This document shows positions 4,626 to 37,882 of a stretch of DNA of 38,002 nucleotides, piece by piece. The position numbers and the translations under genes are program-made. The notes below the pieces were generated by a model. That model saw only the letters and a list, made by a program, of their open reading frames with translations, did no database searches and was not told where the DNA came from. This DNA is from Actinomycetota bacterium (GTDB lineage: Bacteria > Actinomycetota > Geothermincolia > Fen-727 > Anoxymicrobiaceae), in the NCBI GenBank assembly GCA_018896525.1, contig JAHIMR010000105.1:1-38002 (forward strand), read 5' to 3'. How positions within the stretch are numbered: position 1 is the stretch's first letter; each line of letters opens with the position of its first letter.

Positions 4626-4649
4626 TATAATCGATCCCGGTAACTCTTT

Positions 4650-5747: not shown

Positions 5748-5765
5748 GGGGACCTCCTGTTTTTT

Positions 5766-11024: not shown

Positions 11025-11054
11025 TTAAGAAAGCGATTTGCCCGCTCGGCGCTA

Positions 11055-14385: not shown

Positions 14386-14398
14386 TGATCACACCTCC

Positions 14399-21213: not shown

Positions 21214-21286
21214 GTCTTTCCTCCCCGGTTTTCTGCTGTGAGGTGATACCGGACCATTATGCTACCAGGTAACCGAAGAGACATGA

Positions 21287-21354
21287 GCCACTGGTACCTG
21301 TCACCAGTGCGTCATTTTGCGCCACTGGTACCTGTCACCAGTGCGTCATTTGGC
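21287..21354. repeat. Tandem 34-nt repeat, two units
   Basis: Units 21287-21320 and 21321-21354 differ only near the end. Each contains CTGGTACCTGTCACCAG and then TGCGTCATTT. In reverse complement this is the AAAATGACGCACTGGTGACAGG half of the hairpins at 2843 and 22270. It lies in the divergent GNAT/parA promoter region, so it is not acting as a terminator here. Confidence 0.8.
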
Positions 21355-22241: not shown

Positions 22242-22269
22242 TCCCTCGTAAGCAAGCATTGGCAAGACA

Positions 22270-22310
22270 AAAAATGACGCACTGGTGACAGGCACCAGTG
22301 CGTCATTTTT
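22270..22310. terminator. Perfect 18-bp hairpin, probable bidirectional terminator
   Basis: Arms 22270-22287 (AAAAATGACGCACTGGTG) and 22293-22310 are fully complementary around a five-base loop. A5 and T5 at the outer ends give a U-run on both strands. It lies between convergent parA and the CrtI-like gene, the right place for a shared terminator, and is followed by CAACAGCCCGGGGC as at 2882. Confidence 0.75.
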
Positions 22311-22338
22311 CAACAGCCCGGGGCAAGACATCGCGTAA

Positions 22339-23868
22339 TCACCAGCCGTGGTCCCGCACGATGCATGCGGACGCGTTGATGCCTGAAACCATCACCAGGG
22401 GCACGCCACCGCCGGGGTTGGTGCTGGCACCGGCCAGGTATAGGTTGCTTATGACCGGCGATCGCCACGAGGGCCTGAACGGGCCCAGGTTTGGAATGCT
22501 CATCTCGAGCCCGTATATCGACCCCTCCGGCAGGAGCAGTTCCCTCTCGAAGTCCACCGGTGTTCTCATGTCCCGGTCCTGCACCATCTCCCGAAAGCCG
22601 GGGATCACGGTACGCTCGATGTGGGAGGCGGACTCCTCGATGAACTCCGGCTTGTACTCGTCCCAGTTATGGTACTTGAGCCGGTACGGGCCGCAGGTGA
22701 GGAGGCCCAGGGAGAACTTGCCCGGCGGCGCCAGCGTGGGATCGGTGATGCTGGGACATACTATCCCCCGGGGGAGATCCTCCATGGGTGGCATCAGTCC
22801 CCGGGCGTAGTACTCGTCCCAGTAGGCGTTCAACTGCTCGGGGGGCGGGACCATGACCGTAAAGTGGCACCTGATCTCCTCCGGTTTTTCCGAAAGCCCG
22901 AAGTAGACCATCGGTGCCGGGATGGAGAGGGTGTACTTCTCGATGGCCCGGGCGAAGCGGGCGGGCAGGTGCTCCCGGCCGACCAGGTCCAGGTAGGTGG
23001 GGATGGCGCTGGCGTTCGACAGGACAACACAGGCGCGGATGACTTCACCATCACCCGTTTCGACACCAACCGCGCGACCGTTCTCCACTACTATGCGGGT
23101 CACCGGCGTGTTCATGCGGATTTCGGTCCCGTTCTCCCGGGCGATACGGGCCATCGCCCCGGGGATGGCGCCCATCCCCCCGCGGGGGTACCAGTAACCC
23201 TCGTGCGAGAGGTAACTCATTACCGCGAATATCCCGTTTATCCGGTCGGCCGGGATGCCCGCGAACAGGTTCTCGAACGACAGTATCGTGAGCGCCTTGC
23301 GGTCCCTCAAGAACCGCCGGTTCACCGCGTCCTGGGTGCTGGTGACCACCCGGAGGATGGCGGGGATGGCCCTCATCAACTTAAGGCTGGCCGCCATCTT
23401 CAGCAGGTGCCCCGGCGTGCCGAACCGCTCCAGTGGAGGGAACGGCTTGTCTACCATCACCCTGGCCGCGTTCCACACCGTCTTCATCTCCCGGCAGAAC
23501 TCCAGCCACCCCTCGCGGTCCCCGGGAGCGAACTCCGATATCACATCGGCCGTCTCGACCGGGTCCATGGGCAGCAGCACGCTGCTGCCATCCTTGAAGC
23601 GCATATCGTATACGGGGTCGAGGAGGTCCAGTTGGACGTACTCATCCAGGGTGAGCCCCATCATCTCGAAGAAACGGTCGTACAGTTCCTTGTAGAGGAT
23701 GAAGATGGCGCCGACATCGAACTTGTGCCCGTTCAGGTCGTAAGAGGCGCAGCAACCCCCCAGGCGCTCACTGCGCTCCAGGAGGAGGACACTCCTGCCT
23801 CTTTTCGAGAGGAGGTCCGCGCAGGTCAGCCCCCCGATCCCTGAGCCAATCACAATCACGTCGTACAA
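22339..23868 (-). CDS. CrtI/phytoene-desaturase-like flavoprotein
   Basis: 509 residues, typical for CrtI-like enzymes. The FAD-binding motif is VIGSGIGGLTCADLL (6-20), then ERLGGCCASYDLNGHKFDVG, and the C-terminal FAD segment is GASTNPGGGVPLVMVSG, the family hallmark. These enzymes desaturate, isomerise or saturate polyenes (phytoene, retinol) and are membrane-associated. No phytoene synthase is nearby, so carotenoid synthesis should not be assumed. The start is TTG at 23868 behind GGGAG at eight-base spacing. It is the last gene of the long minus-strand redox operon, 31 bp after the next FAD oxidoreductase gene. Confidence 0.85.
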   Translation of the reverse strand: MYDVIVIGSGIGGLTCADLLSKRGRSVLLLERSERLGGCCASYDLNGHKFDVGAIFILYKELYDRFFEMMGLTLDEYVQLDLLDPVYDMRFKDGSSVLLPMDPVETADVISEFAPGDREGWLEFCREMKTVWNAARVMVDKPFPPLERFGTPGHLLKMAASLKLMRAIPAILRVVTSTQDAVNRRFLRDRKALTILSFENLFAGIPADRINGIFAVMSYLSHEGYWYPRGGMGAIPGAMARIARENGTEIRMNTPVTRIVVENGRAVGVETGDGEVIRACVVLSNASAIPTYLDLVGREHLPARFARAIEKYTLSIPAPMVYFGLSEKPEEIRCHFTVMVPPPEQLNAYWDEYYARGLMPPMEDLPRGIVCPSITDPTLAPPGKFSLGLLTCGPYRLKYHNWDEYKPEFIEESASHIERTVIPGFREMVQDRDMRTPVDFERELLLPEGSIYGLEMSIPNLGPFRPSWRSPVISNLYLAGASTNPGGGVPLVMVSGINASACIVRDHGW

Positions 23869-23899
23869 TGAGTCATCTCCCTGCTATCGGTGAGGGCTG

Positions 23900-24964
23900 T
23901 CACTGTGTCAGGCGCCAGCCGGGGACGTTGTCGGCGAAGCGCTTCACAGCCCGGTCCTCGATATAGGGTAGAGCGTTACCTCCGGCGCGCACCAGGGGCC
24001 GTTTGATGCAGTCGGGCAGCAGGTCCCAGACCTTCTTGACCACATACGTGGGGTAGAAAGTCGCAACCGCCCTTCGGAACTCGTCGTACGCCTCCGCCTT
24101 GTCCTCGATTGCCCTGGCCGCGACGCGGCCGGTGACCAGCGCTCCCAGCATCCCGAAGAACAGGAACGGGTCGATTACGCCTGCAAAAGTTCCGGCAAGT
24201 ATCTTGTTGCCGTGGAAGAGGCGGGGGTTTCTTATGCTGCCCACCGGGCAGGCACCTCCCATGAGGTCTGTCCACTGGCTGAACTCGGCCCCTTCAAGCT
24301 CGGCCAGCATGGTGACGAACTTTTCCTTGCCCTCCCGGGTTAGTGGCACGTCTCTCTGGAACAGGAGGGCGAACGATACCCCGTTGATAACGCAGTAGAA
24401 CGCGTAGTCCCTGGTGAACGTGTCCATCCACAGGGATACGGTCGTACGGTCGTGGTCCACCGTACCCTTGGCGAAGTAGCCATAGAGGGGGGAGTAGGGG
24501 ATGTTCAACGCCTCGTACGGCTCGATCTTGAGGCCGGTCGAGATGATACTGTCGGCGGGTAATCTGGCGTAGTCGCCCTGGGTGATGACCGGGTGGCCGA
24601 ACTCGACGTTTACCCCCAGTTTCTCCGCTTCCGCGAGGAGAAGGCTGTCCAATGACGATGAGCGGGACCCCCTTTCCACCATATACATGTCGATGGATCC
24701 CTGTAGAGGCATCCGGTATCGCCTGCCCCAGGCTATCAGGCTGGCTTCGTCCAGCGGCTTCGCCGCCGGAGCGATGTCAACTCCGGTAAAGCGCTTGATG
24801 CCCTCGATATCGAACGGGCTTCCCGCCGGGTCGGGCCTGAACTCCAGCATGCCCCCGATGCGGTCCTCCCGCTCCAGGATGTTCACCTGGTGCCCCACGC
24901 GGGCCAGGTTTATAGCCGCCACAAGCCCGGATATACCGGCGCCTACGATTGTCACTTCCTTCAT
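23900..24964 (-). CDS. FAD oxidoreductase, geranylgeranyl-reductase-like, paralogue B
   Basis: 354 residues. VTIVGAGISGLVAAINLARVG gives the N-terminal dinucleotide motif, and NPRLFHGNKILAGTFAGVID then FFGMLGALVTGRVAA resembles the late FAD-contacting helix of geranylgeranyl-reductase-like and FixC-like flavoproteins. It shares a private family pattern with the genes at 25006 and 31618: ERGSRSSSLDS, VxFEF near 125, and LPADSIISTGL. Reduction or oxidation of a hydrophobic substrate is likely; the exact reaction is unknown. GGAGG seven bases before the ATG at 24964 supports the start. It is inside the minus-strand redox operon. Confidence 0.75.
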   Translation of the reverse strand: MKEVTIVGAGISGLVAAINLARVGHQVNILEREDRIGGMLEFRPDPAGSPFDIEGIKRFTGVDIAPAAKPLDEASLIAWGRRYRMPLQGSIDMYMVERGSRSSSLDSLLLAEAEKLGVNVEFGHPVITQGDYARLPADSIISTGLKIEPYEALNIPYSPLYGYFAKGTVDHDRTTVSLWMDTFTRDYAFYCVINGVSFALLFQRDVPLTREGKEKFVTMLAELEGAEFSQWTDLMGGACPVGSIRNPRLFHGNKILAGTFAGVIDPFLFFGMLGALVTGRVAARAIEDKAEAYDEFRRAVATFYPTYVVKKVWDLLPDCIKRPLVRAGGNALPYIEDRAVKRFADNVPGWRLTQ

Positions 24965-25005
24965 CGTTCCACCTCCGGATGGTGTGTTCTCCCCGGTCCG
25001 CCTTC

Positions 25006-26088
25006 TCAGTAGGGGAGCTGCTTGTACCCGGGCAGCGCCTTGAAGAAGTTGTCCATGAAGCCCTTGAAGATATCGGCGTGGTCCTGGGAGAACTGGAACT
25101 GGGCCGGCAGTATCTTCTTCCTGAGCCCGACCGGCACGCTGTCGAAGAACCTCCTCAAGAACAGGTTTCGCTTGTAGAACCTGATGTAGCGGGTATAGAG
25201 CTCGAACGCCTCCCGCCTGTTTTGATGCGCCATCGCCGCTATCTTCCCCGAGACCAGCGAGCCGTGCACTCCGAACAGCGCGAACGGGTCCATCATACCG
25301 CCCAACGTCCCCGCCAGGATCTTATCTCCCACGAACAGGCGCGGGTTGTCGTAGGCGCCGGTGGGCACCAGGCCCTCGTGGTAGTTCCAACTGGCGCACC
25401 CCATTCCTTCCTGGCCTTCGAGTTGCCTCTCCTTGAACTCTTCCCACTCGCTGTCCCTTACCGGCTCCCTGGCGAAGTAAAGGGAGAACACCACGCCGTT
25501 GGCGGCGCCGTAGTAGGCGTAATCCAGGATGTAATCGTGGAACCACACCGCGCACAGGGCGCCCTTGTCGGTCTTGCCCCGCCCCATGTATCCGTAGACC
25601 CGCTGGTAAGGGATGCCCAGCGCCTCGAACGCCTTGAAGTAGAGGCCGGTGGCGATGATGGAGTCGGGCGGCAACCGGGCGAAGTCACCCTGGCTTACCA
25701 ACTCTTTGCCGAACTCGAAGGAGACCCCCGCCTCCAGGCACTTATCGTACAGGAGCTTGTCCAGGGCGGTATCACGGGAGCCCCTTTCCACGCAGTGCAG
25801 GTTTAGATGGGTCAGATCCATGGTAACTTGATGGTCATAAGTGTACAGGTTCCAGTTCTCGACAGGCGTTACCTGGGGCTTGTTCAGGTCGACCCCGATG
25901 AACCTGCCCAGCGGGCCGGGCTCTATCGGGGTGACGTCCACCGCGGGATGGATCTCGGGCATGCCTCCGACCCTGTCGTACTTCTCCAGGACCAGTACAT
26001 CGTGTCCGTCCCGGGCCAGGTTCAGCGCCGCGACGAGCCCGGCCAGGCCCGCTCCCACCACGATTACCTCCGATGATTCCGTTGCCAT
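25006..26088 (-). CDS. FAD oxidoreductase, geranylgeranyl-reductase-like, paralogue A
   Basis: 360 residues from the ATG at 26088. An upstream in-frame ATG at 26103 contains the SD itself (GGAGG), and that SD is ideally placed eight bases before 26088, so the shorter start is preferred. Motifs match its paralogues: [52 protein letters not shown] and [17 protein letters not shown]. The C-terminal 90 residues are rich in Phe, Arg and Lys and could associate with membrane. It lies 41 bp upstream of paralogue B and follows the small TM gene. Confidence 0.75.
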
Positions 26089-26134
26089 CTTGCGCACCTC
26101 CATTGGTGTATCAAACTATTGACCCCCACCTCAG

Positions 26135-26157
26135 TCCTCCCCCTGCGAGGGGGAGGA
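26135..26157. repeat. Perfect GC-rich hairpin
   Basis: TCCTCCCCCT (26135-26144) and AGGGGGAGGA (26148-26157) form a 10-bp stem with a three-base loop between the small TM gene and paralogue A. No U-run follows on the minus strand, so it may be an attenuator or mRNA-stabilising hairpin rather than a terminator. Confidence 0.5.
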
Positions 26158-26183
26158 AGCAGAATGGGAATCGATAACATTGG

Positions 26184-26363
26184 CTAGGTCAGCAAACGGC
26201 CCGGCATTCGCCGGGCCTCGCCCAACTGCTTTTTCAAGTGCTTGACATATCCCTCGTCCAGGCGCGAGGCCCGGTACAGCCCGGCCAGCGCGCCCGCCAG
26301 CAAGACCAGGAGCGCCGCAAGCCCTCCCCGGTGTTCCCATGCGAACCTGATTGGCCTTGTCAT
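26184..26363 (-). CDS. 59-residue single-pass membrane peptide
   Basis: A small frame runs from ATG 26363 to TAG at 26184. The product starts MTRPIRFAWEHRGG, has one hydrophobic helix (LAALLVLLAGALAGLY, about 15-30) and then a basic, helical tail (YVKHLKKQLGEARR). GGAGG four bases before the ATG is a good SD. It sits 52 bp downstream of the second FAD-linked oxidase and upstream of paralogue A, in the same direction. I infer a membrane anchor or small subunit for the flavin/Fe-S proteins, which otherwise have no TM segment. The position supports this, but nothing tests it. Confidence 0.6.
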   Translation of the reverse strand: MTRPIRFAWEHRGGLAALLVLLAGALAGLYRASRLDEGYVKHLKKQLGEARRMPGRLLT

Positions 26364-26415
26364 GCCGCCTCCGGTAACAGTGTCACCCGTTACCCCTTTC
26401 CCACGATGGGGACGC

Positions 26416-28032
26416 CTAGAACAGGACCTTTTTCATCGTGCCGGTGTCGTACTCCCATCGGCGGTTGGATATGTTGTTGGGGTCGAGTGCCATCTTCATC
26501 CTGGTGAACGTTTCCATGAACTGGACCATGTTTGGCTGCGCCGCCGGCATCGCCAGGTCCATCATCGGCATCCCCTTGATAAGCGCCCCCGCGCCGGCGG
26601 CGATTATCATGCCCTGCGCCATCGCGGTGATGGTCGCCCTCCCGTAGCCCATCAGTATCCTTATCAGGTCGTCCTTGTCGCATTGGTTGGTGTACATGTC
26701 GTACTCCATATAGGCGGAGCGACCCATGTGATACGGCTGGAGGTAGGTCGAGGCGTCGTCGGGAGCGAGGGCGTCGTCGGTGGTGCCCACCTGGTTGGTG
26801 CACGCTTCTCTCATCGTCTTCTCTATCCCCACCATGTTCTCCAGCTTGTCGATGAGCGCGCCTATCATGAACGAGCCGCGTACCCGCTGCACCCTTACGG
26901 TGACGTTGAAGTACTTGACCCAGGTGTCGAAGTTGACGTAATCGTACTCCTCGGTGAGGTCTTCCATGGCCTCAATTGGAAGGAAGCTGAAATCAGGAAA
27001 ATGCTCCTCCAGCATCTTCTCGGTAAGTTCCGACTTGAGGTCCGCCTCCTCCTGCGTCTCCCCCCCGAAAATGGTGACCAGGTTGTGCCTGGGCATCAGC
27101 TCGGTAACCTTGGCCGCTTCCTTGTTGGTCTCTCCCAGGAATATCCCGAAGAAGGAGTCCATCATGTGGGCCAGCTCCAGGCAGAGGTTGTCCTGGGCGA
27201 CCATCTCCAGGGCTTCGGCCATTACCTCCAGCCTGTCTTCCTCGTAGGAGGGGAATACCTGCTGGTGGAACCTCGCCTCGGGGTAGAGCCGGATGGTCAT
27301 CCGGGTGACTATCCCCAGGGTGCCGAACGCGTAGCGGAACATAGTAGAGAGGTCCGGCCCCGGTCCGGGTACGTGGCCTTTCACCGCACCGTAGGAGTTC
27401 GGCCCCGTCTTCAGGATGTCTCCGTTGGGAAGCACCATCTCCACGTCGATGATGTTATCCATCCCGAACCCGTACTTGGAGGCCATGGTGTTGATGTTGC
27501 AGAACGCGTGGTTGCTGATGACCCCGGCGGTTGCGCTGGTGGATGGATTGAGCACCCGGCAGCCCGCCTTCTGGGCGGCGACCTGCAGCACCAGGTAGTT
27601 GACCCCAGGCTCGATGATCGCGAACATGTTCTCTCCATCAAGCTCCACAATCTTGTCCATCCGGCGCAGGTCGCAGATGATGCCCCCGTAGGTGGGGAGC
27701 GCCATTCCGGCGGTGGTCAGCCCGGTGCCGAACGGCATGACGTCGATGAGGTACTCGTTGGCGACCCGGTAGACCGCCCCGACGTCCTCGGTGGAGGCGG
27801 GCATGCACACGACATGCGGGTAGGAAGCGGGGGTGAAGCTCTGGTCGCGGGCGTAGCCGCAGAGGATAGACGGAGAGTCGGTCGCCCACTCCTCGCCAAG
27901 TGCCTCCCGCAGGGCGGCCAGGGCCTTCCCCAGGTTCTCCACCCGGTTATGGTCCGGGTCTTTCTCCATCACCTGGGGCCTGTGTACGACCCGCCTCTCC
28001 CTGAGTTCCTCCCTTATCCTGCTCTTTGACAT
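26416..28032 (-). CDS. FAD-linked oxidase, GlcD/lactate-dehydrogenase-like (PCMH-type FAD domain)
   Basis: 538 residues. The PCMH-type FAD domain covers about residues 70-250: PHVVCMPASTEDVGAVYRVA, MPFGTGLTTAGMALPTYGG, IIEPGVNYLVLQ, STSATAGVISNHA and FGTLGIVTRMTIRL. The C-terminal cap ends with ALDPNNISNRRWEYDTG. Members oxidise 2-hydroxy acids, or aryl/alkyl ethers and alcohols, and pass electrons to partner Fe-S proteins. GGGAGG six bases before the ATG at 28032. It starts 14 bp after the CCG-type Fe-S gene, which points to a stable complex of the two. Confidence 0.85.
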   Translation of the reverse strand: MSKSRIREELRERRVVHRPQVMEKDPDHNRVENLGKALAALREALGEEWATDSPSILCGYARDQSFTPASYPHVVCMPASTEDVGAVYRVANEYLIDVMPFGTGLTTAGMALPTYGGIICDLRRMDKIVELDGENMFAIIEPGVNYLVLQVAAQKAGCRVLNPSTSATAGVISNHAFCNINTMASKYGFGMDNIIDVEMVLPNGDILKTGPNSYGAVKGHVPGPGPDLSTMFRYAFGTLGIVTRMTIRLYPEARFHQQVFPSYEEDRLEVMAEALEMVAQDNLCLELAHMMDSFFGIFLGETNKEAAKVTELMPRHNLVTIFGGETQEEADLKSELTEKMLEEHFPDFSFLPIEAMEDLTEEYDYVNFDTWVKYFNVTVRVQRVRGSFMIGALIDKLENMVGIEKTMREACTNQVGTTDDALAPDDASTYLQPYHMGRSAYMEYDMYTNQCDKDDLIRILMGYGRATITAMAQGMIIAAGAGALIKGMPMMDLAMPAAQPNMVQFMETFTRMKMALDPNNISNRRWEYDTGTMKKVLF

Positions 28033-28046
28033 GAGAAGCCTCCCGT

Positions 28047-29249
28047 TTACAGTGCTTTTTCGATGACCTCGGCGAGGTCGTAGACGTCCAGCTTGTACTT
28101 GCCTTCACTCGCGGCGCTCTCAAACATCCGCACGCAGATGGGACAGGAGGTGACGATCGCCTCCGCGCCGACAGAATCGGCCTCAAAAAGCCGCTCGTTG
28201 GTTACCCACCGGACGTACTCCGGCTCCCAGAAGAACACAGAACCGCCACCGCCGCAGCAGAGAGAGTTCTTGAGGTTCCGCTCGAACTCCAGCAACTCCA
28301 GCCCCGGCATCGCCTCGAGCACCTTGCGCGGGGCCTCGAACACCCCCTGGCGGCGGCCGAGCCGGCAGGGGTCGTGGTAGACGGCCTTGACCTTGACCTC
28401 GTTCGCGAGCTTCAGCTTGCCTTCGTCTATCAGACCGGCGGCGATCTCGGAGAAGTGGTATACCTCGATATCGATTGCCTTCGCGTACTCCTCCTTGAGG
28501 ACGGTGTAGGCGTGGGGATCGGCGGTTATGACCTTGCCCGCGCCGGACTCCTCGATCTTCTCTGTGTTGGCGGCGGCCACTGTCTCGAAGTAGTCCCGGT
28601 CGCCTATCATGAGCAGAGCGCTGCCGCTGGAAACCTCGGCTGTGCCCAGGGTCCCGAACTCCACGCCCCCCGCCCGCAGAACCTTCGCCACTGCTTTCAT
28701 GCGGGGCGCGAGCTCGGGGAAGACGCCGTAGTCGTCACCCACGAAGAGCAGGTACTCGACTTTCTCGTCCAGGGCGTTCTTGATGTCCAGGCCATCTTCC
28801 CACTCGACCCTCTTCCTGGCGGGAACCCCGTAGGGGTTGTCGGTTTTCTCGATGTTATCGAGCATCTCCGAGAACTGTTCCATCGGGGCCCACCCGTCCT
28901 GCACCGCCTGCTCACGCAGGAGCTGGATAACCCACAACGGGTGCATCTGCTTGACGGGGTAGCAGCGGTCCTCGCAGGATCCGCACAGCATGCAGGTGTA
29001 CAGGGCGTGCCGCATCCGGTCGTCCGGCTCGATCTCCACCAGGTCCAGGCAGCGGGCTATCTCCAGCTTGCCCGAGGCGTAGTACGCCTCGTAGCGGAAG
29101 CGAGTGCCGGACGGGCAGTTCCGCCAGAAGCGAGGTTCTTCACACTGCTGGGCCATGACCGCCTGGCACAGTTTGCATTTGCCGCATAGCGAGAAATCCT
29201 CTCTCAGTTCCGAGAGCACCTCGCGCGGGGCGGTGATTCTGCGCTTCAT
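28047..29249 (-). CDS. Fe-S electron-transfer protein with CCG domain (GlcF/HdrD-like)
   Basis: 400 residues. Two N-terminal cysteine clusters are visible: C22, C25, C28, C36 and C86, C89, C92, C96, fitting two [4Fe-4S] sites. One complete CCG motif follows: YHDPCRLGR (C295), CCGGGG (C331, C332) and CPIC (C369, C372). The expected first CCG site is degenerate: where CxxC would precede LKEEY the sequence is ADPHAYTVLKEEY. Such proteins link FAD dehydrogenases to quinones or other carriers. The SD (GGAGG, nine bases before the ATG at 29249) lies within the terminal arm of a palindromic element, so translation may depend on RNA folding. Confidence 0.85.
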   Translation of the reverse strand: MKRRITAPREVLSELREDFSLCGKCKLCQAVMAQQCEEPRFWRNCPSGTRFRYEAYYASGKLEIARCLDLVEIEPDDRMRHALYTCMLCGSCEDRCYPVKQMHPLWVIQLLREQAVQDGWAPMEQFSEMLDNIEKTDNPYGVPARKRVEWEDGLDIKNALDEKVEYLLFVGDDYGVFPELAPRMKAVAKVLRAGGVEFGTLGTAEVSSGSALLMIGDRDYFETVAAANTEKIEESGAGKVITADPHAYTVLKEEYAKAIDIEVYHFSEIAAGLIDEGKLKLANEVKVKAVYHDPCRLGRRQGVFEAPRKVLEAMPGLELLEFERNLKNSLCCGGGGSVFFWEPEYVRWVTNERLFEADSVGAEAIVTSCPICVRMFESAASEGKYKLDVYDLAEVIEKAL

Positions 29250-29255
29250 TGTCTA

Positions 29256-29417
29256 GTGCCTCCTTCCATGGGTACGGTTGAGCACCGAGAGCGTCGAAGC
29301 GCCGCTCCGGCAAGGCGCGCGACCGAGACGTACTCCTGTAGTACGTCTTGGGAGCGGAACGCAGCCGGTGTGGATGCAGCGGCGTTCGAATGCCAGCGTA
29401 TTTGTGGAAGGAGGCAC
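29256..29417 (+). repeat. Palindromic dispersed element, copy 1 (162 bp)
   Basis: Terminal arms GTGCCTCCTTCCA (29256-29268) and TGGAAGGAGGCAC (29405-29417) are perfect inverted repeats. Inner complementary pairs follow: TACG/CGTA, a GCGCCGCT/AGCGGCGT region and CCGGC/GCCGG, capped by a GACGTACT/AGTACGTC hairpin. The whole element can fold into one long stem. It fills the gap between two operon genes: one arm abuts the stop of the upstream FAD gene, and the other contains the SD of the Fe-S gene. Confidence 0.85.
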
Positions 29418-30818
29418 TTAGATCCCTTCCAGTAGCTCGTCGGGGTTGAGGAGGCCCTTTGGATCGACGATTCTCTTGAACAGCTTGATCATCTCCACGT
29501 ACGACGGGTCCGTCCGGGAGTAGACCATCTCGGCAACCGGCCCGGTAGGCTTGTCGATGAACGCTTTGTTGTCCAGAAGCGCCTCGCATGACCCCAGGTA
29601 GGCGGCCTCCGCCGACCCCGCCGCCTTCTCGTTCCCGGAGTTGTAGTAAATGTCAGCGCCGCAGTATGCCGCGCCTCCGAAGTAAGTGGGGACCAGTATC
29701 TTTCCTAAGTCGTCCGGCTTGCCCCCCGCCGCGCTTACCTGCTCTTCGATTACCTGGAACGTCTCGGGGACGTTCTTGAAGTACTCGTAGCAGTAGACGT
29801 GCCGGCAATCACCCTTGTAGAAGTTTCTGTCGTAGACGTACCACGGCTTACTGAGCGACTTCTCCAAGCCCTCGGGGACCTGGCCGCGAAGATGCTTTCC
29901 GCCAAGCTCTTTCGCCGCTTCCTTGATGTACCCTTCCCATAACTCCACGAGCTCCTTGTGGTGCTCCATGGTGATGACCACGGTCCACGGCTTGAGCTTC
30001 TTCTTGAGGGCGGACACCTTGCCGGCGTCCCCCCCGGCGAGCGTTACCGAAAGGTAGCGGTCGTTTGCCGCGAAAGCCTCGAAGCACCAATCGGCGCGGC
30101 TTACCTTGTAGATGAGGTCCTTTGCGGGGCCGACCTCGTCAAACCCGAAGGCCACCAGCCGTCGCTCCTCACGGTTGGGGTAGGTGTAGACCAGGCCGTA
30201 GTAAGGGATTCCGAATATATCCTCCGATGCCCCGAAGAACGGTGAGAACTGGGGCCCCTGGTCCTCCCTGAAGTCGGCGTGGCCCTCATCGGTCATCTGC
30301 TGCGAGCCGGAGACCCATAGCTGACCGTCGGCCATCATGGCGTGGAAGACGGAGAGGTGGGGGTGCCGGTACCCCCCGGAGCCCATCAGGATATCCCGGT
30401 CGATGTATGACCGCAGGACGAATGGGGACTGACCGGCGACCGGGAACAGCAACCGCTGGTTCTCCTTGTCCAGTTCCTTCTGGAGCTGCTCGAAGGTCAC
30501 GCCCGCATAGACGAAGGCGGTCAGGTTCCTGGTGTCGATCTTCTTGATCCGGTTCATCCTGGCCAGGTCGACCAGGACGCCCTCCTTCTTCGCCAGGGAC
30601 TTATCCGAGAACTTTCTTTTGAGCGAGAAAAGGGGTATCTCGTTTTGGTGACAGAAGGCCGCGACATCGGAAAGCTGGTCCACGTTCTCCGGGGTCACCA
30701 GCAGGAGGTCGGTGCCGGAGACCGGCTCCTTGAAGTACGGTGAGACGGCCCTGTCGCCGCTTCGCACGTTTCCGTCCCCAAGGAGTCTCTTGAGCTCTTT
30801 GGTCGCGCTTGGGTTCAT
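29418..30818 (-). CDS. Divergent FAD-linked oxidase subunit (GlcD/GlcE-like)
   Basis: 466 residues. The FAD domain is in the first half: GTDLLLVTPENVDQLSDVAAFC, VLVDLARMNRIKKID, AFVYAGVTFEQLQKEL and LFPVAGQSPFVLRSYIDRD. The C-terminus IVDPKGLLNPDELLEG is the common end of this superfamily. The middle is unlike well-known members. With the CCG protein and the 538-residue oxidase it makes a three-part FAD/Fe-S/FAD set resembling glycolate oxidase GlcDEF, although the two FAD proteins are both longer than GlcE. GGGAGGAG is close to the ATG at 30818. It follows the SCP2-like gene by 31 bp. Confidence 0.8.
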   Translation of the reverse strand: MNPSATKELKRLLGDGNVRSGDRAVSPYFKEPVSGTDLLLVTPENVDQLSDVAAFCHQNEIPLFSLKRKFSDKSLAKKEGVLVDLARMNRIKKIDTRNLTAFVYAGVTFEQLQKELDKENQRLLFPVAGQSPFVLRSYIDRDILMGSGGYRHPHLSVFHAMMADGQLWVSGSQQMTDEGHADFREDQGPQFSPFFGASEDIFGIPYYGLVYTYPNREERRLVAFGFDEVGPAKDLIYKVSRADWCFEAFAANDRYLSVTLAGGDAGKVSALKKKLKPWTVVITMEHHKELVELWEGYIKEAAKELGGKHLRGQVPEGLEKSLSKPWYVYDRNFYKGDCRHVYCYEYFKNVPETFQVIEEQVSAAGGKPDDLGKILVPTYFGGAAYCGADIYYNSGNEKAAGSAEAAYLGSCEALLDNKAFIDKPTGPVAEMVYSRTDPSYVEMIKLFKRIVDPKGLLNPDELLEGI

Positions 30819-30849
30819 ATCTCCTCCCAGTCTGTTGTCAGCCGCTGAT

Positions 30850-31266
30850 CTAACCGACGTCTATTATCGATTCCAGCCCTTTTTCCGTGAGTATCTCCGG
30901 GTAGATCTTGAAGGCGGGCTTGATGACCGGCAGCAGCTTCAGCAGCTTGGGGACCGAACCCTCCGACTCTATGTCACCGCTGGTGAGCGCCTTTATGAGG
31001 TTCAGCTTGCCCAGCCAGAACTTGTGGGCGACGTCGCTGTCCATGGTCAGGGTGGCGTCGGCGGTCAGATCCGCCTTCCCCGGTGTCAGCACGATCTCGT
31101 CGCCGGTGCAGTCTATCCACACCTCGCCTTCGGGGTCGTCATAGACAAAGTTGACTATTAACTTGGAAGCCAGGGCTTTCTTCTTGATGTCGGGATCGTC
31201 CGAGAGACGGTCGAAAAGCTCCTGGAGACACCAGTAAAGGTCCTCGATGTTGTCGAAGTACGGCAT
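30850..31266 (-). CDS. SCP2-like sterol/lipid-carrier domain protein
   Basis: 138 residues from the ATG at 31266, supported by AAAGGAG nine bases upstream; a longer frame to 31401 is not preferred. VWIDCTGDEIVLTPGKADLT, ADATLTMDSDVAHKFWLGK and LIKALTSGDIESEGSVPKLLKL match the SCP2 sterol-transfer fold, in which a hydrophobic tunnel binds sterols, fatty acyl-CoA or other lipids. As first gene of the redox operon it may present a lipid substrate to the flavoproteins (inference). No enzyme domain is attached. Confidence 0.8.
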   Translation of the reverse strand: MPYFDNIEDLYWCLQELFDRLSDDPDIKKKALASKLIVNFVYDDPEGEVWIDCTGDEIVLTPGKADLTADATLTMDSDVAHKFWLGKLNLIKALTSGDIESEGSVPKLLKLLPVIKPAFKIYPEILTEKGLESIIDVG

Positions 31267-31369
31267 GGCGACACTCTCCTTTCGGTCAATACGACCTTGC
31301 CGGGACAATAAGACCTCGAATGCCGGACGCATCTTCCTCAAGAAACGAATCGGCATTACTCGAGCGCCA

Positions 31370-31401
31370 TACAGGTTATTATTATATAGTGTAACTGTCA
31401 A
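31370..31401 (-). promoter_or_regulatory. AT-rich promoter-like region for the redox operon
   Basis: On the minus strand a perfect TTGACA (31396-31401) is followed by an AT-rich run containing TATAAT, but the spacing to TATAAT is only nine bases, and no good -10 lies at 16-18 bp. It is about 100 bases before the SCP2-like start. The 351-base gap 31267-31617 otherwise holds palindromic copy 2. Confidence 0.25.
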
Positions 31402-31433
31402 TGACCGGGCAGTGCAATCGCACTATCAACTAC

Positions 31434-31593
31434 TGCCCCGTCTCATAAGTACGGTGACGCACCGAGAGCGTCTCCGCTCCGCGCTGGCAAGGCGCGTGAC
31501 CGAGATGTACTCTTGTAGTACTTCGAGGGAGCCCAGCGCAGCCGGAGTGGATGCAGCGGCGTTCGAATGCCATTGTATTTGTGAGACGGGGCA
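31434..31593 (+). repeat. Palindromic dispersed element, copy 2 (160 bp)
   Basis: It aligns end to end with copy 1 (29256-29417), sharing GCACCGAGAGCGTC, GGCAAGGCGCG, GTACTC-TGTAGTAC and GTGGATGCAGCGGCGTTCGA. Its terminal arms TGCCCCGTCTCA (31434-31445) and TGAGACGGGGCA (31582-31593) are perfectly complementary but differ from those of copy 1 at four positions, all compensated. It lies in the divergent region upstream of paralogue C. Confidence 0.85.
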
Positions 31594-31617
31594 CGATGGA
31601 ACAGCGAGGTGGTGGGA

Positions 31618-32685
31618 GTGGCTGAGAACGTAGTGGTGGGTGCTGGGCTTGCGGGAATGGTGGCCGCGATCAACCTGGCGCGGGAGGGCCGGGAGGTGCT
31701 GGTCCTGGAGAGGGAATCCAGGGTCGGCGGCTCTCCGTTGTATCACCCTTCCCCGGAGGGAACCCCGATAGATCTGCCCCGGTTGGCCGAGTACACGGGG
31801 ATTGATATCTCCGGCGCGGTGGCCCGTTTCAAAGCGGGAAGCGTTGTGGTATACGGCGAGAAGGTCACGGTGGACATGGACGCCATCTCCTCGGTGGTGA
31901 TAGAGAGGGGGCCTCGTTCGACGTCCCTGGACAGTTACCTGTACGAGCTGGCGGTGAAGGAGGGCGTGAAGTTCGAGTTCAATCACCCGGTGATATCCAA
32001 CGACGATACAGTCAAGCTGCCTCCGGATACGATAATCGCCACCGGTCTTTACTTCGAGGGGTTCGACGCGCTGCGCGTCCCGTACCTCACCTCGTTCCAT
32101 TTCGTGACCCGGAGGAAGGTCCCCGACGAGGAGGCCAACCACGTGACCGTCTACCACGGTCAGTTCACCTCCGACTACGCCTACACCTGTTCGGTGAACG
32201 GGATTCAGTTCGCCCACGTCTTCCAGCGCAGGCCGATCGGGAAGGACACACTTCACGCCTTTACCGAGCAGGTATTCGTCTCGGAGGGAATCGAGTTCGA
32301 TGGGTGGGAGCAGTTCACGTTCCCGGTCCCGGCGGCCTCTATCAACAACCCCCGGCTGTTCGCCGGCGACAAGATACTGGCGGGGACACTCGCCGGATGT
32401 ATGGAGTCGTACATGTTCTTCGGCATGCTGGGGGCGCTGGTCTCGGGGAAGATAGCGGCGATGGCGGTAAGTGACAAGGCGAGGGCTTATCAGGAGTTCA
32501 AGCTCGCCACGTCCGCGTTCAAGGGCGCGTACCTGATGAAAAAGATGGGGAATATAACTCCCCACTGGCTGCACCGGTTGATGCTCCTTCAGGGTATTCC
32601 CCGGTTGTCTGAGTACCCGGCACTCGCGGATGTCGTGAAGCGGGCGATACCCGGTTGGCGCAACTGTGAGAGGGCCGGGGCTTAG
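31618..32685 (+). CDS. FAD oxidoreductase, geranylgeranyl-reductase-like, paralogue C
   Basis: 355 residues from the GTG at 31618, chosen because GAGGTGG lies about five bases upstream; a GTG at 31609 is also in frame. [53 protein letters not shown] and [17 protein letters not shown] show it belongs with the two minus-strand paralogues. It is the first gene of a plus-strand operon, divergent from the long redox operon, with a CrtI-like gene 20 bp downstream, echoing the paralogue-then-CrtI order on the other strand. Confidence 0.75.
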   Translation: MAENVVVGAGLAGMVAAINLAREGREVLVLERESRVGGSPLYHPSPEGTPIDLPRLAEYTGIDISGAVARFKAGSVVVYGEKVTVDMDAISSVVIERGPRSTSLDSYLYELAVKEGVKFEFNHPVISNDDTVKLPPDTIIATGLYFEGFDALRVPYLTSFHFVTRRKVPDEEANHVTVYHGQFTSDYAYTCSVNGIQFAHVFQRRPIGKDTLHAFTEQVFVSEGIEFDGWEQFTFPVPAASINNPRLFAGDKILAGTLAGCMESYMFFGMLGALVSGKIAAMAVSDKARAYQEFKLATSAFKGAYLMKKMGNITPHWLHRLMLLQGIPRLSEYPALADVVKRAIPGWRNCERAGA

Positions 32686-32705
32686 TTATCAAGCGAGGGG
32701 GTCAA

Positions 32706-34160
32706 ATGCGGAAGAAAGTCGTGGTGATAGGGACCGGACCGGGGGGCAGCGCCTGCGCGGCCCTGCTCCAGAGCAGGGGGATGGACGTAACAATCCTCGA
32801 GCAGAACAGGTTTATCGGGGGCAGGTGCTCCACGTTCGAGGAGAACGGCTTCATGGTGGACACCGGTGTGCACATGTTCGCGAGCGGCCCTTCGGGCCCG
32901 CACGGGCAGGTGGCGCGCGAGCTGGGGGTGGCCCAGCCCTGGATGATCCGAAACCCCTCGGAGTCGATGTGGATGAACGAGAACGGGGTCTTCTACCTGT
33001 ACCAGAAGAACACCAGCTTCTCCGCGCTGGGGGAGCTCGTCAAGGCGGGGATTACCGGGCGACAGAGGATCAATATCCTGAACACGCTTCGCCGCTCGGT
33101 CAACAGCTTCGGGGTAGTTGGCCTCTTGAAGGAGATGGCGGGAGTGAGGAGAGCCAACCCCGCGTTCCTGGAGAAGTACGACGAGGTCACGACCAGGGAG
33201 TTCCTGTACCAGTTCACCGAGGACAGCGGAGTGCACCGGGCGATGAACTGCCTGAGCATGTTGCTGCTGGTGGTACCGTACGACAAGTCGTCGGCGGGGG
33301 AGTTCATCTACGCTGTCTCCGGCATATTCGGAAACGGTACCCTGGGGGTCCCCCGGGGCGGGGCGATTGGGGTGCCGCGCTCCTTCCTGAGGGCCTTCCG
33401 GCGCGACGGAGGACAACTCCTGCTGGGGGTAGCGGCCAGGGATATACTGGTCGAGGGCGGCAGGGTGACCGGGGTCGTCGGCTCCGACGGTGAGACGTAC
33501 ACAGCCGACGCGGTTGTCTCCAACGCGGGGCTCCACAGGACCGTTGAGCTTGCCGGGGAGGACAGCTTCCCCGCCGAGTACGTGGAGTACATCAAAGGGC
33601 TGAAGCTCTCCTACTCGTGGCTGGCCACCAAGCTGGCACTCGAGCGAAGGGTGGTGGACCTGAAGGCCCCGTCGTTCTTCCCGATACCGCAGGTGGAAGC
33701 CGATGAGATATTCGCTTACTGCGACGAGCCGGATGGTCTTCCCGAGGACCCATTCCTGTTCGTGCCGGTGCCCACAGAGTGGGACCCGACCCTGGCGGCG
33801 GCCGGGCGCCAGTTGATAATCATGGGCGTTCCGACCTCCAACGACGTGGACCAGGAGGACAGGAGCCAGAAGATACTGGACATAGGCGAGAAGAAACTGT
33901 TCTCGTTCTTCCCCGCCATAGAGAGGAACCTCATGTGGAAGAGCCGGATAACCAACAAGGACACCAACCGCATTACCCGCAAGGGGAAGGGTGACTGCAT
34001 AGGCCTTGCCCAGATACCGGGACAGGTCGGCTCACGGAAGCCACATCCCAAACTCCCGGTCGAGGGACTGTGGGCCGTCGGGTGTGACGCCGGCGCCAGG
34101 GGCGTGGGCACCGAGCAGGCGACGGCCTCGGCGATGCTGGTGAGCAGCTTAATAACGTGA
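32706..34160 (+). CDS. CrtI-like flavoprotein
   Basis: 484 residues. VVVIGTGPGGSACAALL (5-21) and NRFIGGRCSTFEENGFMVDT are the FAD-binding start of phytoene-desaturase-like enzymes; AVGCDAGARGVGTEQATASA is the C-terminal FAD segment, less canonical than in the gene at 22339. The GRCSTFEENGFxVD pattern resembles the amine-oxidase/CrtI group in general. GAGGGGG four bases before the ATG at 32706 supports the start. The stop overlaps the methyltransferase start (GTGA), so they are translationally coupled and may act on the same molecule. Confidence 0.8.
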   Translation: MRKKVVVIGTGPGGSACAALLQSRGMDVTILEQNRFIGGRCSTFEENGFMVDTGVHMFASGPSGPHGQVARELGVAQPWMIRNPSESMWMNENGVFYLYQKNTSFSALGELVKAGITGRQRINILNTLRRSVNSFGVVGLLKEMAGVRRANPAFLEKYDEVTTREFLYQFTEDSGVHRAMNCLSMLLLVVPYDKSSAGEFIYAVSGIFGNGTLGVPRGGAIGVPRSFLRAFRRDGGQLLLGVAARDILVEGGRVTGVVGSDGETYTADAVVSNAGLHRTVELAGEDSFPAEYVEYIKGLKLSYSWLATKLALERRVVDLKAPSFFPIPQVEADEIFAYCDEPDGLPEDPFLFVPVPTEWDPTLAAAGRQLIIMGVPTSNDVDQEDRSQKILDIGEKKLFSFFPAIERNLMWKSRITNKDTNRITRKGKGDCIGLAQIPGQVGSRKPHPKLPVEGLWAVGCDAGARGVGTEQATASAMLVSSLIT

Positions 34161-34996
34161 CTCGGGAGTACCGGCACGGCGGTTGGGACGAGTGGCTCCA
34201 GCGCCTGGAAGGGAAGGTCCGGGGGGCGCCGGAGGTTGCCTGGCTCGACCGGATAGCGGACCGGGTCCTGGACAAGGCACGTCTCCGGCGTGGGGACAGC
34301 GTGGTAGACCTGGGCACCGGGCACGGTCTGCTGGCGATGAAAGCGGCGCGCGCTGTAGGGCCGGGCGGCACCGTGGTGGCGTTAGACTCCGACCCCGGTT
34401 GCCTGGATGAGCTGCGGCGGCGCCGTGATAGCATGAGTATCAGGAGTATCCTGACGGTTGTCGGCCGCATGGAGGACCTGCCTCTCGAGTCAGAGAAGTA
34501 TAGCGCCGTTGTATGTCGTTCGGCGCTGACATATTCGGAGAACCTGGGTGCCGTGGTATCGGAGATATCAAGGGTAATGGCGCCGGGGGGCCGGTTCTCG
34601 GTATTCGAGCCGCTGGCGGGAGAGATGGAATGGAGGGCTGATGAGGGTGTTTCGCTCGAGGGTTTTCTCCGGCTGGAGCGAATCGTTTCCGAGGAGCGGG
34701 AACCACGGCCTCCGGACCGCGAGAGTTTAAGGCGCGCGTTCGCCGACCGGTTCGGTGGCGTGGAGTCGCTGGTGGTCCACCATAGAGTAACGTTCGAGGG
34801 TATGTGTGTAGAGGAGATAGCCGGTGAGTACCTTCACGACCTGCCCGGCGAAATGGCAGCAACGCAGGTGCTGGGCCGGCGGGTTCCCGGGGAAGACGTT
34901 ATGAGCGCGGTCTCGGGTTTCGCCCGCGAGGCGTCATCGGGAAAGGTGAAGGGGCGCCTGCCGTGCATATTCCTGTGGGGAGTTAAGGCCGTATAG
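34157..34996 (+). CDS. Class I SAM-dependent methyltransferase
   Basis: 279 residues. Motif I is VVDLGTGHG (49-57), followed by VVALDSDPGCLDEL, the acidic ribose loop; VVGRMEDLPLESEKYSAVVCRSAL and ISRVMAPGGRFSVFEP are motifs II to post-III. It resembles UbiE/COQ5-like small-molecule methyltransferases. GTG start overlapping the CrtI-like stop by four bases. The C-terminal 120 residues are more variable and probably set the substrate. Being tied to a CrtI-like gene, it may methylate a terpenoid or quinone-like product (inference). Confidence 0.8.
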   Translation: MTREYRHGGWDEWLQRLEGKVRGAPEVAWLDRIADRVLDKARLRRGDSVVDLGTGHGLLAMKAARAVGPGGTVVALDSDPGCLDELRRRRDSMSIRSILTVVGRMEDLPLESEKYSAVVCRSALTYSENLGAVVSEISRVMAPGGRFSVFEPLAGEMEWRADEGVSLEGFLRLERIVSEEREPRPPDRESLRRAFADRFGGVESLVVHHRVTFEGMCVEEIAGEYLHDLPGEMAATQVLGRRVPGEDVMSAVSGFAREASSGKVKGRLPCIFLWGVKAV

Positions 34997-35002: not shown

Positions 35003-37882
35003 ATGGGTACTGGAGAGGGGTCGATAAAATTGACCGGCCTACCGAGACTAAGGACGCGGACAGTGCTGGCGATTGTGGTTGCGCTGGCGATACTTCTTTG
35101 GGCCGGGTCGTTTGCCCTGGCGGGGGAAGGTGGAGCGGCGGTGTCACCCGCGGAGGCCCGCGCCGAGGCGGCAGACCTCATCACGAGGGTGATGAGTGCC
35201 TCAAGGAACGGTACCGCGCAGATGGGATCGGTCCCGGATTGGGAAGGGGCGGTCCCCGGTGAACCGATGCTGGTTTTCGCCTCCAACGGCTCCCCGTCGC
35301 AGTACCTGGTACCGGTGCTCGACAGCGGGGGAGCGGTGGTCTCGACCATAGGGGTAAGCGCGATAACCGGGGAGTGGACCAGGTACTCTCCCGTATATGG
35401 TCTGCCGGAGTTCCCGCTGGTGGATGCCGGTGAAGCGGTCGGCATGGTACGCGATTTCTTGAGGCGGCGGGGAGTTGACATCGATTTGCCGGCGCCCGAG
35501 GCAAGGGTCGCGCCTGACAAGGTCATCTACTGGTTCTTCGACCTTCCGGGCGACCTGCCGATAGACGACGTCTATCTGCCGGCGTTCTCCGAATCCAACC
35601 CACTCGCCGACCCCGCTTTTTCCAGCATGGAGGGGCCCGAAAAGAGTAATGGGGCCGGCGACTGGCTCCCGTGGGCGGGGAGTGGCGCGGTAGCGACCGA
35701 GCCGCCGGCCAGGGCGGGTGGCGCCCCGGCCGCGTACGACATCGCGGATGTCCCTTATCACGTGCAGGAGACAGGCTACTGGTGCGGGTCCGCCTCCCTG
35801 GAGATACTGTTCGATTACTTCGGGCCCGACATAAGCCAGTCCGAGATAGCAGGGGTCGTGAACTCCGACCCCACTTACGGGTGCTACAACAGAGAGCTGT
35901 TCAGGGGCGCGCAGTTCTCCAGTAACAGCACCTCCATCCAGGACCCGTTATTGCACGGCTATACCGCCAGGGGGATTGGCTATGGGGCGGCCTACGATTA
36001 CTGGGAGGACGGCTCTTCGCTATACGGCTCCCGGTACACCGACCTCAAGAGCCTGGTATCGAAGAACTACCCGGTCATTATTCTCTCCTACTACGACACC
36101 CCGCCATCGTCCGGTCACTTCAGGGTGGTCAAGGGATACAACGACACGCTGGACGAGTTTATAGTGCATGACCCCTGGTACACCCCGCCGTGGGGTGGGC
36201 CCGACCAGCACTTCAACCAGACGTTCCTCGTTGATTCGCTGTGGAACTACTCCGACCGCTGGGGGATGATCGCGTCCCCGTGGTCGGTCGCGCTGACCAA
36301 ACCGACGAGCGTCTACGCGGGCCAGGAGTTCACCGTGGACGCGTCGGTGTCGTACGGGGGGCCGGAACCGCTGAGCGGCCAGTACCCGTGCAGCAACGCG
36401 ACCGCGACGCTGCAGTATCCGTCCGGATACGTCGTCGTTGGCGGCCAGGACAGCAAGCAGATAAGTGGTATAGACGCCACCGGCTCCACCGGCTCCACCG
36501 GTTGGACGGTCAGGGCGCTGAAGGCCGGGAGCACCGATGATATCCAGGTTACCGCGATGGGGACGGTGTTCGGTAGCACCAGCGATTACCCCGGCTACAG
36601 CGACTGGATCGGCGGCATCGGGCCGGGGGGGTCGGCCCCTCCGGTCACCTCACGGACATGGGGCCACGATTCGGTGGGGGTGCCGAACCCGTCGCAGCTA
36701 TGGTACCTGGCCGAGGGGTGCACCAACGGGGGGTTCGAGACGTGGGTGCTGGTACAGAACCCGAACAGCCGGTCCGCCAACGTGAGTCTTACCTACATGA
36801 CCGCGGATGGGGCTGTGCGGGGGCCGACCGAGATACTCCCCGCAAATTCGCGCAAGACGTTTTACGTGGCGGACGTCGTACCGGATTGCTGGGACGTCTC
36901 CACGATGGTCACCTCCGACGAACCGGTCATCGCCGAGAGGTCGATGTACGGCAACGGTCGTACCTGGGGACACGATTCCATCGGCACATCCGCGACATCG
37001 GACAAATGGTACCTGGCCGAGGGGTGCACCAACGGGGGGTTCGAGACCTGGGTCCTGGTGCAGAACCCTAACAACGTGCCGGCGACCGTGACCCTGAAGT
37101 ACATGACCCAGGACGGCCTGGTAACGGGGCCGACCGAAACGCTGCCCGAAAACTCGCGCAAGACTTTCAACGTGGCCGATACCGTACCTGGCTGCTGGGA
37201 CGTATCGACCCTGGTAACCGCCGATAGCGACGTAGTCGCCGAGCGGTCGATGTACGGCAACGGCCGCACCTGGGGACACGACTCCATCGGCGTGTCGGCG
37301 CCTTCAAGCGAGTGGTACCTGGCCGAGGGGTGCACTAACGGGGGCTTCGAGACGTGGGTGCTGGTTCAGAACCCTAACAACGTGCCGGCGACCGTGACCT
37401 TAAACTACATGACCCAGGACGGCCTGGTAACGGGGCCGACCGAAACGCTGCCCGCCAACTCGCGCAAGACGTTCTATGTGGCCGATACCGTACCTGGCTG
37501 CTGGGACGTATCGACCCTGGTAACCGCCGATAGCGACGTAGTCGCCGAGCGGTCGATGTACGGAAACGACCGCGGGTGGGGCCACGACTCGAAAGGCGTA
37601 TCGGTGCCTTCAACAACGTGGTACCTGGCGGAAGGGTGCACCAATACCGGTTTCGAGACATGGATCCTTGTTCAGAACCCGAACGCCATTCCGACCGATG
37701 TGACGTTGACGTACATGACACCCGACGGTCCCATCGACGGTCCGACCGAGACGCTGCCGGCCAACTCGCGCCAGACGTACAACGTGGCCGAAACGGTACC
37801 AGGCGCCTGGGAGGTGTCCACCATGGTCACCTCTACCCAACTGATCATCGCCGAGCGCTCAATGTACGGCGACCCACGCTAA
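35003..37882 (+). CDS. Secreted C39-like peptidase-fold protein with four C-terminal 102-residue repeats
   Basis: 959 residues. A signal peptide with a basic start (PRLRTRT) and hydrophobic core (VLAIVVALAILLWAG) ends near AGEGG. A pro-region to about 245 contains a PepSY-like stretch. A peptidase C39_2-like domain follows: Cys261 in GYWCGSASLEILFDYFG, His372 in SGHFRVVKGYND and Asp390 in FIVHDPW, a full papain-like triad. An Ig-like segment (about 430-540) leads to four tandem repeats starting at 551, 653, 755 and 857, each with WYLAEGCTN and SMYG. It is probably a surface-exposed protease or binding protein. ATG 35003 has a weak SD; TTG 35030, behind AGAGGGG, is an alternative start. Confidence 0.85.
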   Translation: MGTGEGSIKLTGLPRLRTRTVLAIVVALAILLWAGSFALAGEGGAAVSPAEARAEAADLITRVMSASRNGTAQMGSVPDWEGAVPGEPMLVFASNGSPSQYLVPVLDSGGAVVSTIGVSAITGEWTRYSPVYGLPEFPLVDAGEAVGMVRDFLRRRGVDIDLPAPEARVAPDKVIYWFFDLPGDLPIDDVYLPAFSESNPLADPAFSSMEGPEKSNGAGDWLPWAGSGAVATEPPARAGGAPAAYDIADVPYHVQETGYWCGSASLEILFDYFGPDISQSEIAGVVNSDPTYGCYNRELFRGAQFSSNSTSIQDPLLHGYTARGIGYGAAYDYWEDGSSLYGSRYTDLKSLVSKNYPVIILSYYDTPPSSGHFRVVKGYNDTLDEFIVHDPWYTPPWGGPDQHFNQTFLVDSLWNYSDRWGMIASPWSVALTKPTSVYAGQEFTVDASVSYGGPEPLSGQYPCSNATATLQYPSGYVVVGGQDSKQISGIDATGSTGSTGWTVRALKAGSTDDIQVTAMGTVFGSTSDYPGYSDWIGGIGPGGSAPPVTSRTWGHDSVGVPNPSQLWYLAEGCTNGGFETWVLVQNPNSRSANVSLTYMTADGAVRGPTEILPANSRKTFYVADVVPDCWDVSTMVTSDEPVIAERSMYGNGRTWGHDSIGTSATSDKWYLAEGCTNGGFETWVLVQNPNNVPATVTLKYMTQDGLVTGPTETLPENSRKTFNVADTVPGCWDVSTLVTADSDVVAERSMYGNGRTWGHDSIGVSAPSSEWYLAEGCTNGGFETWVLVQNPNNVPATVTLNYMTQDGLVTGPTETLPANSRKTFYVADTVPGCWDVSTLVTADSDVVAERSMYGNDRGWGHDSKGVSVPSTTWYLAEGCTNTGFETWILVQNPNAIPTDVTLTYMTPDGPIDGPTETLPANSRQTYNVAETVPGAWEVSTMVTSTQLIIAERSMYGDPR
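36653..37882 (+). repeat. Four tandem 306-bp coding repeats
   Basis: The units begin at 36653, 36959, 37265 and 37571, exactly 306 bp apart. Each encodes WGHDS, WYLAEGCTN-GFETW, VQNPN, a GPTExLPxNSR segment and AERSMYG. Units 2 and 3 are nearly identical in DNA over long stretches, implying recent duplication or gene conversion; unit 4 is the most diverged. Confidence 0.9.

Follow-up and report, generated by a model that had tools for sequence, protein, structure and literature searches.

A conserved flavoprotein gene cluster of the class Ca. Geothermincolia, possibly serving the redox processing of a hydrophobic acid

The 38,002-bp stretch of DNA analysed here (the window) is one entire contig (G000:C79) of a 2.9-Mb draft genome of the class Ca. 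Geothermincolia (Actinomycetota), a name given in PMC10746217. It contains a divergent cluster of redox genes, labelled CRT1, A, B, TM59, FAD4a, CCG, FAD4b and SCP2 on the minus strand and C, CRT2 and MT on the plus strand (Table 1). We found that this cluster is real, conserved and undescribed, and that it includes a new flavoprotein family; the literature on the class, on the gene combination and on the loss of prenyl synthases contained no paper on the locus. The reading we favour, with a probability of about 0.4, is that the cluster oxidises or reduces, most likely in catabolism, a hydrophobic carboxylic acid (such as a fatty or cyclic one) or acyl-CoA bound by the SCP2 protein, with the electrons leaving via Fe-S centres. 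A first-pass annotation made from the sequence alone had proposed one redox locus for a lipid-like substrate of isoprenoid or steroid type. All genes it named are present in the order and at the positions it gave and a lipid-like substrate is plausible, whereas the isoprenoid and quinone parts of the proposal are not supported (see below).

Conservation of the locus and its flavoproteins

Comparisons within the class were made with 31 Ca. Geothermincolia genomes, the source genome (G000) included. The layout FAD4b-CCG-FAD4a-B-A, divergent from C-CRT2, keeps its order across the class relatives. One conserved redox locus is thus supported, and the synteny whose absence would have refuted the first-pass annotation was found. 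SCP2 and MT adjoin this core in loci with the order of the window; in other families they lie beyond CRT2, beside an aldehyde:ferredoxin oxidoreductase (PF01314, PF02730; Solincola-type loci). An orthologue of FAD4a, taken as a homologue of at least 57% identity, is present in 23 of the 31 genomes. The window's FAD4a has relatives in Ca. Geothermincola, Ca. Solincola and Ca. Geohydrothermomicrobium, which assigns the window to the class. Genomes lacking the orthologue include the 99% complete G013; the core is retained in G008, a 1.8-Mb genome that is also 99% complete. Since the cluster is conserved across the class, the grouping of its genes is not due to chance. The same bin holds, on contigs C73 and C28, another copy of almost the entire cluster, with 75–91% protein identity, which may be a duplicate or belong to a second strain. 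The ratio of nonsynonymous to synonymous substitution rates (dN/dS) between the window and this copy was 0.11–0.30 for every gene compared, indicating purifying selection.

The triad FAD4a-CCG-FAD4b is reminiscent of the glycolate oxidase GlcDEF, whose operon likewise encodes two FAD_binding_4 subunits along with a CCG Fe-S subunit. However, the similarity is low, the GlcD equivalog cut-off (567.9 bits) is missed by both FAD4a (89.9 bits) and FAD4b (49.2 bits), and the window triad is accompanied by SCP2 and many more flavoproteins. The CCG protein has two [4Fe-4S] motifs and one CX35CCX36CX2C motif; its first CCG motif is degenerate, unlike that of GlcDEF, and intact in some paralogues. At locus L152, next to FAD4b-CCG-FAD4a and an A/B/C gene, a single protein of 946 aa combines FAD4b and FAD4a-like halves, and at L253 a similar 981-aa protein with two FAD_binding_4 stretches is followed by CCG. 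These arrangements suggest that FAD4a, FAD4b and CCG may form one complex.

The structural model of FAD4a, with a predicted local distance difference test (pLDDT) score of 79, matches the folds of D-lactate dehydrogenase and of p-cresol methylhydroxylase (PCMH)/vanillyl-alcohol oxidase (VAO) about equally, with template-modelling (TM) scores of 0.67–0.78 (VAO-type structures, 0.70–0.78; PCMH, eugenol oxidase and VAO, about 0.75–0.78). Thus FAD4a shares the FAD domain and the overall fold with the VAO/PCMH family, but its substrate domain has diverged and is not alignable by sequence, the alignment shows no conservation of the YGG segment found in the closest VAO-type enzyme, and its partner is an Fe-S protein and not a cytochrome or oxygen. 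Two alternatives follow from these likenesses. If the triad were a 2-hydroxyacid oxidase of the glycolate/lactate type, with unrelated flavoproteins as neighbours, both its GlcDEF-like composition and the match of FAD4a to D-lactate dehydrogenase would be accounted for; given the scores far below the GlcD cut-off and the fixed, class-wide linkage with A/B/C and the CRT genes, we consider this improbable. Oxidation of alkylphenols or lignin-type aromatics by VAO-like FAD4a and FAD4b would agree with the VAO-type matches and with the up to 24 homologues per genome, but the lack of conservation of the YGG segment in the alignment and the about equally good fit of D-lactate dehydrogenase speak against it, SCP2 and A/B/C would be left unexplained, and little probability attaches to it.

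The A, B and C proteins of the window are 38–42% identical to one another. In a tree of 100 members they fall into separate clades (support 100/99 for C, 96/84 for B and 94/80 for A), and they are therefore ancient, separately kept genes. Their description in the first-pass annotation as geranylgeranyl-reductase (GGR)-like applies to the fold and not to the family. The AlphaFold2 model of C (pLDDT 95.6) has the GGR-like protein 3oz2 as its closest solved structure and first match (TM 0.68, E 5e-16), with FixC also scoring high; comparison with viral structures using Foldseek gave no useful match, and a sequence search with a 60-row profile reached solved structures mainly via the FAD-binding N terminus. 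Besides this overall fold, the GxGxxG FAD motif is common to C and the GGR family (TIGR02032, GGR_cat PF22578, 3oz2). The substrate motif of geranylgeranyl reductases is YxWxFP. In contrast, neither YxWxFP nor GDxxG occurs in any of the 100 A/B/C sequences, nearly all of which have GT in place of GD; GGR_cat is not matched, and the TIGR02032 scores are about 40 bits (A, 42.0; B, 37.4; C, 40.4) against a curated cut-off of 158.8 bits. A GGR-like neighbour at L246 does match GGR_cat and shows GYAWMFP. Because the GGR motifs are absent and the scores are far below the cut-offs, we rejected A/B/C as geranylgeranyl reductases; on the basis of sequence and model, they should be treated as an undescribed family with a predicted GGR-like fold and three ancient branches.

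Searches with C gave between 1 and some 20 matches in each class genome, part of which were short and covered the FAD-binding N terminus, and no full-length match among the other Actinomycetota searched. Outside the class, full-length members were found in three genomes, labelled in their draft records as Lake Pavin 'Proteobacteria' (G105), 'Deltaproteobacteria' (G106) and bacterium (G111). The last of these has A/B/C genes (L255, L256) adjoined by relatives of genes lying at 2907–8519 of the window, which encode a B12-type radical S-adenosylmethionine (SAM) protein, a DUF7064/7065 protein and a phosphoenolpyruvate-synthase-like protein.

Of the two flavoproteins annotated at first as CrtI-like, CRT1 belongs to the CrtI phytoene desaturase family by score (304.8 bits; curated cut-off of TIGR02734, crtI_fam, 238.1 bits) and has the phytoene dehydrogenase 4dgk as its best PDB match (E 7e-50), whereas CRT2, with 103.8 bits, is a distant relative below the cut-off. 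Relatives of CRT1 accompany the triad at L107–L109 and L246. The setting differs from that of CrtI systems in that the class has no phytoene synthase and the CRT genes sit with a dehydrogenase triad. A CrtI/carotenoid-isomerase-like domain is also present in a 956-aa fusion protein encoded elsewhere in the window (Table 1). In related families its gene belongs to the same synteny block and lies near the cluster, at L086, L087, L090 and L095; the protein is perhaps a self-sufficient NAD(P)H-driven saturase.

Substrate and electron acceptor

Phytoene/squalene synthase (SQS_PSY, PF00494) was detected in none of the 31 class genomes, with positive controls. Nor did any of them contain a trans-prenyl diphosphate (polyprenyl) synthase (PF00348), which was positive in 14/14 control genomes and in 73/74 other Actinomycetota genomes. 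Since both families are missing throughout, the known enzymatic routes to phytoene, squalene and geranylgeranyl diphosphate are apparently closed to the cell. Among other isoprenoid genes, all 31 genomes have UppS and 25 of them have UbiA-family proteins, and the IspH of the source genome passes TIGR00216. Beside the latter (L210, 9411–11245 of G000:C55) lies a tandem pair of UbiA-family genes with low scores to all NCBIfam prenyltransferases.

These data bear on the isoprenoid, carotenoid or steroid pathway suggested in the first-pass annotation. The CRT1 score, the fold of C and the occurrence of UppS and UbiA-family proteins agree with such a pathway, but the two synthases are lacking, A/B/C have neither the motifs nor the scores of geranylgeranyl reductases, and the substrate could then only be a cis-polyprenyl chain or an isoprenoid taken up from outside, which makes the proposal quite improbable. 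A substrate of this type made by the cell is thus unsupported, while an imported isoprenoid or steroid is possible; the annotation's own statement that this is not a standard carotenoid cluster agrees with the absence of both synthases. Carotenoid or steroid synthesis as a de novo pathway was rejected, as the backbone synthases were not found in any class genome.

The annotation had also proposed exchange of electrons with the quinone or electron-transferring flavoprotein pool. In the class, MqnC was represented by weak fragments only, none above cut-off, and no MenB exceeded its cut-off, four genomes reaching 252–262 of the 342.7 bits. Menaquinone as the electron acceptor is therefore unsupported, a result from two menaquinone genes that leaves room for other quinones. 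Together, de novo carotenoid, steroid or prenyl-lipid metabolism, for which the class lacks the backbone synthases, and a menaquinone sink are unlikely.

The SCP2 protein passes PF02036 (29.2 bits; cut-off 21.3 bits), and at two loci a second triad is adjoined by an SCP2 protein 70–71% identical to that of the window, in agreement with the earlier assignment of SCP2 as a probable carrier for a hydrophobic substrate. Genes for acyl or CoA chemistry are found at several related loci: 1) an ADP-forming acyl-CoA synthetase-like gene lies between CRT1 and the triad at L108 and L109; 2) an AMP-binding enzyme is encoded between two A/B/C genes at L245; 3) an AMP-binding ligase and a thiolase adjoin a FAD4b-type protein at L253; and 4) the second triad at L115 is adjoined by enoyl-CoA hydratase-like and short-chain dehydrogenase/reductase-like genes (both named by sequence only), an acyl-CoA mutase and a close SCP2 homologue. 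The aldehyde:ferredoxin oxidoreductase beside SCP2 and MT in the Solincola-type loci counts among these partners as well. Two SCPx-type thiolases are encoded in the window itself, at 13225–15550. Because acyl/CoA genes recur in this way, a hydrophobic carboxylic acid or acyl-CoA would be the substrate, an argument of guilt by association.

In the model we propose, we infer the substrate class, the formation of a complex, the electron acceptor, the oxidative direction and the role of each flavoprotein. The encoded proteins would work as one flavin-based redox module, and SCP2 would carry its substrate, a hydrophobic carboxylic acid or the CoA thioester of such an acid. Within the module, FAD4a, FAD4b and CCG would constitute a three-subunit, GlcDEF-type dehydrogenase that draws electrons from the substrate and passes them through Fe-S clusters, one of them a non-cubane CCG cluster; the electrons would reach a carrier in the cytoplasm, for example ferredoxin or electron-transferring flavoprotein. 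TM59 may anchor the dehydrogenase at the membrane. A, B, C and CRT1/CRT2 would further desaturate, saturate or isomerise this substrate, and MT would methylate it.

Several observations weigh against this model. The acyl-CoA partners are located at paralogous or distant loci and none is inside the window locus. At class loci, A/B/C genes away from the core showed no significant association with CrtI, FAD4 or CCG genes (near 19/285, far 13/263, p = 0.47); with extra labels the same test gave 26/286 near A/B/C and 14/263 far (p = 0.10), and outside the class the figures were 19/97 near and 6/49 far (p = 0.35). In addition, G014 has the triad without A/B/C, and the retention of the core in the small genome G008 fits a housekeeping role as well as catabolism.

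The main rival is a biosynthetic locus, in which the FAD proteins would saturate, desaturate or cross-link SCP2-presented acyl chains of a lineage-specific membrane lipid and MT would methylate them. Housekeeping-like conservation, G008 included, and the presence of SCP2 and MT are in line with it; moreover, the same block encodes a CrtI domain fused to an NAD(P)H/Fe-S GltD module, a combination that would fit reduction, and an A/B/C paralogue in the source genome adjoins a CDP-alcohol phosphatidyltransferase. However, the core has no acyltransferase or headgroup gene, related loci carry genes for acyl-CoA synthetase, thiolase, hydratase and mutase that would fit breakdown, and the nearly complete G013 lacks a FAD4a orthologue. 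We regard membrane lipid modification as somewhat less probable than the favoured reading. A bolder suggestion, which we hold to be unlikely, is that A/B/C, the GlcDEF-like triad and the CrtI-type enzymes together convert hydrophobic acids anaerobically by an undescribed flavin-based reaction, or make a non-isoprenoid membrane redox carrier in a class apparently without menaquinone and trans-prenyl isoprenoids.

Gene calls, repeats and neighbouring genes

The features of the locus are listed in Table 1. We moved the start of SCP2 because its homologues align only from about the new position, where the ATG is preceded by the Shine-Dalgarno-like sequence AAAGGAGAG; this ATG is most likely the true start. 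TM59 is a real gene, since a peptide 49–81% identical to it is kept at the same position in several genomes of family f1 and its dN/dS is low. MT meets none of the listed NCBIfam cut-offs.

Table 1. Features of the redox locus and the fusion gene outside it (positions in the window)
Feature	Position	Strand	Evidence and remarks
CRT1, CrtI-family flavoprotein, 509 aa, TTG start	22339..23868	-	TIGR02734 304.8 bits; dN/dS 0.12
A, GGR-fold flavoprotein paralogue, 354 aa	23900..24964	-	Pfam: general FAD/NAD-binding domains only; dN/dS 0.22
B, GGR-fold flavoprotein paralogue, 365 aa	25006..26103	-	clade B 96/84; dN/dS 0.16
TM59, 59-aa single-span peptide	26184..26363	-	hydropathy peak 1.82 over 19 aa; dN/dS 0.15
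FAD4a, VAO/GlcD-type FAD dehydrogenase subunit (putative), 538 aa	26416..28032	-	PF01565 E 7.5e-24
CCG, Fe-S subunit (putative), 400 aa	28047..29249	-	PF02754 E 5e-19
165-bp dispersed hairpin repeat, CCG/FAD4b gap	29253..29417	.	end carries GGAGG ahead of CCG start
FAD4b, second VAO/PCMH-type FAD subunit (putative), 466 aa	29418..30818	-	PF01565 E 1.8e-14; dN/dS 0.11
SCP2 domain carrier protein (putative), 138 aa	30850..31266	-	PF02036; start revised from 31401
C, GGR-fold flavoprotein paralogue, 358 aa	31609..32685	+	model, fold match, clade C 100/99
CRT2, divergent CrtI-like flavoprotein, 484 aa	32706..34160	+	PF01593 E 6e-19; dN/dS 0.12
MT, SAM-dependent methyltransferase, 279 aa	34157..34996	+	PF13649 E 1e-15; dN/dS 0.30
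CrtI-like domain fused to GltD-like NAD(P)H/Fe-S flavoprotein, 956 aa	17639..20509	-	Pfam and NCBIfam domains; outside 22339-34996

The genes are tightly spaced, as had been described before; the one exception is the gap separating CCG from FAD4b, which holds an inserted repeat of 165 bp. This hairpin element of about 165 bp occurs again in the window at 31430–31594 and in part at 10963–11025, and in the genome as a whole about 40 near-full copies were scored out of a first look that gave 234 candidates. Its fold has a z-score of -6.4, and its paired ends co-vary (10 pairs, with 26 cells changed on both sides; none of 500 shuffles was as high). It has no match in Rfam, and one copy, with 78% identity, was found in another genome (G009, L080).

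Short intergenic palindromic repeats of the type TGACGCACTGGTGACAGGCACCAGTGCGTCA are located at 2836–2898, 21284–21351 and 22264–22326. Downstream of MT, at 35003–37882, is the gene for a protein of 959 aa, in which a C39-like peptidase domain is combined with four repeats of about 102 aa (306-bp tandem repeats in the DNA, at 36624–37841); several relatives have homologues of this protein where the cluster ends.

Implications for the class

A fixed set of about 10 redox genes typifies much of a class of uncultured Actinomycetota from hot springs, fens, mines and other sites. Once solved, the locus would supply a function for a large set of flavoenzymes now without annotation, and it would shed light on lipid or carbon metabolism in bacteria that apparently lack trans-prenyl isoprenoids or menaquinone.

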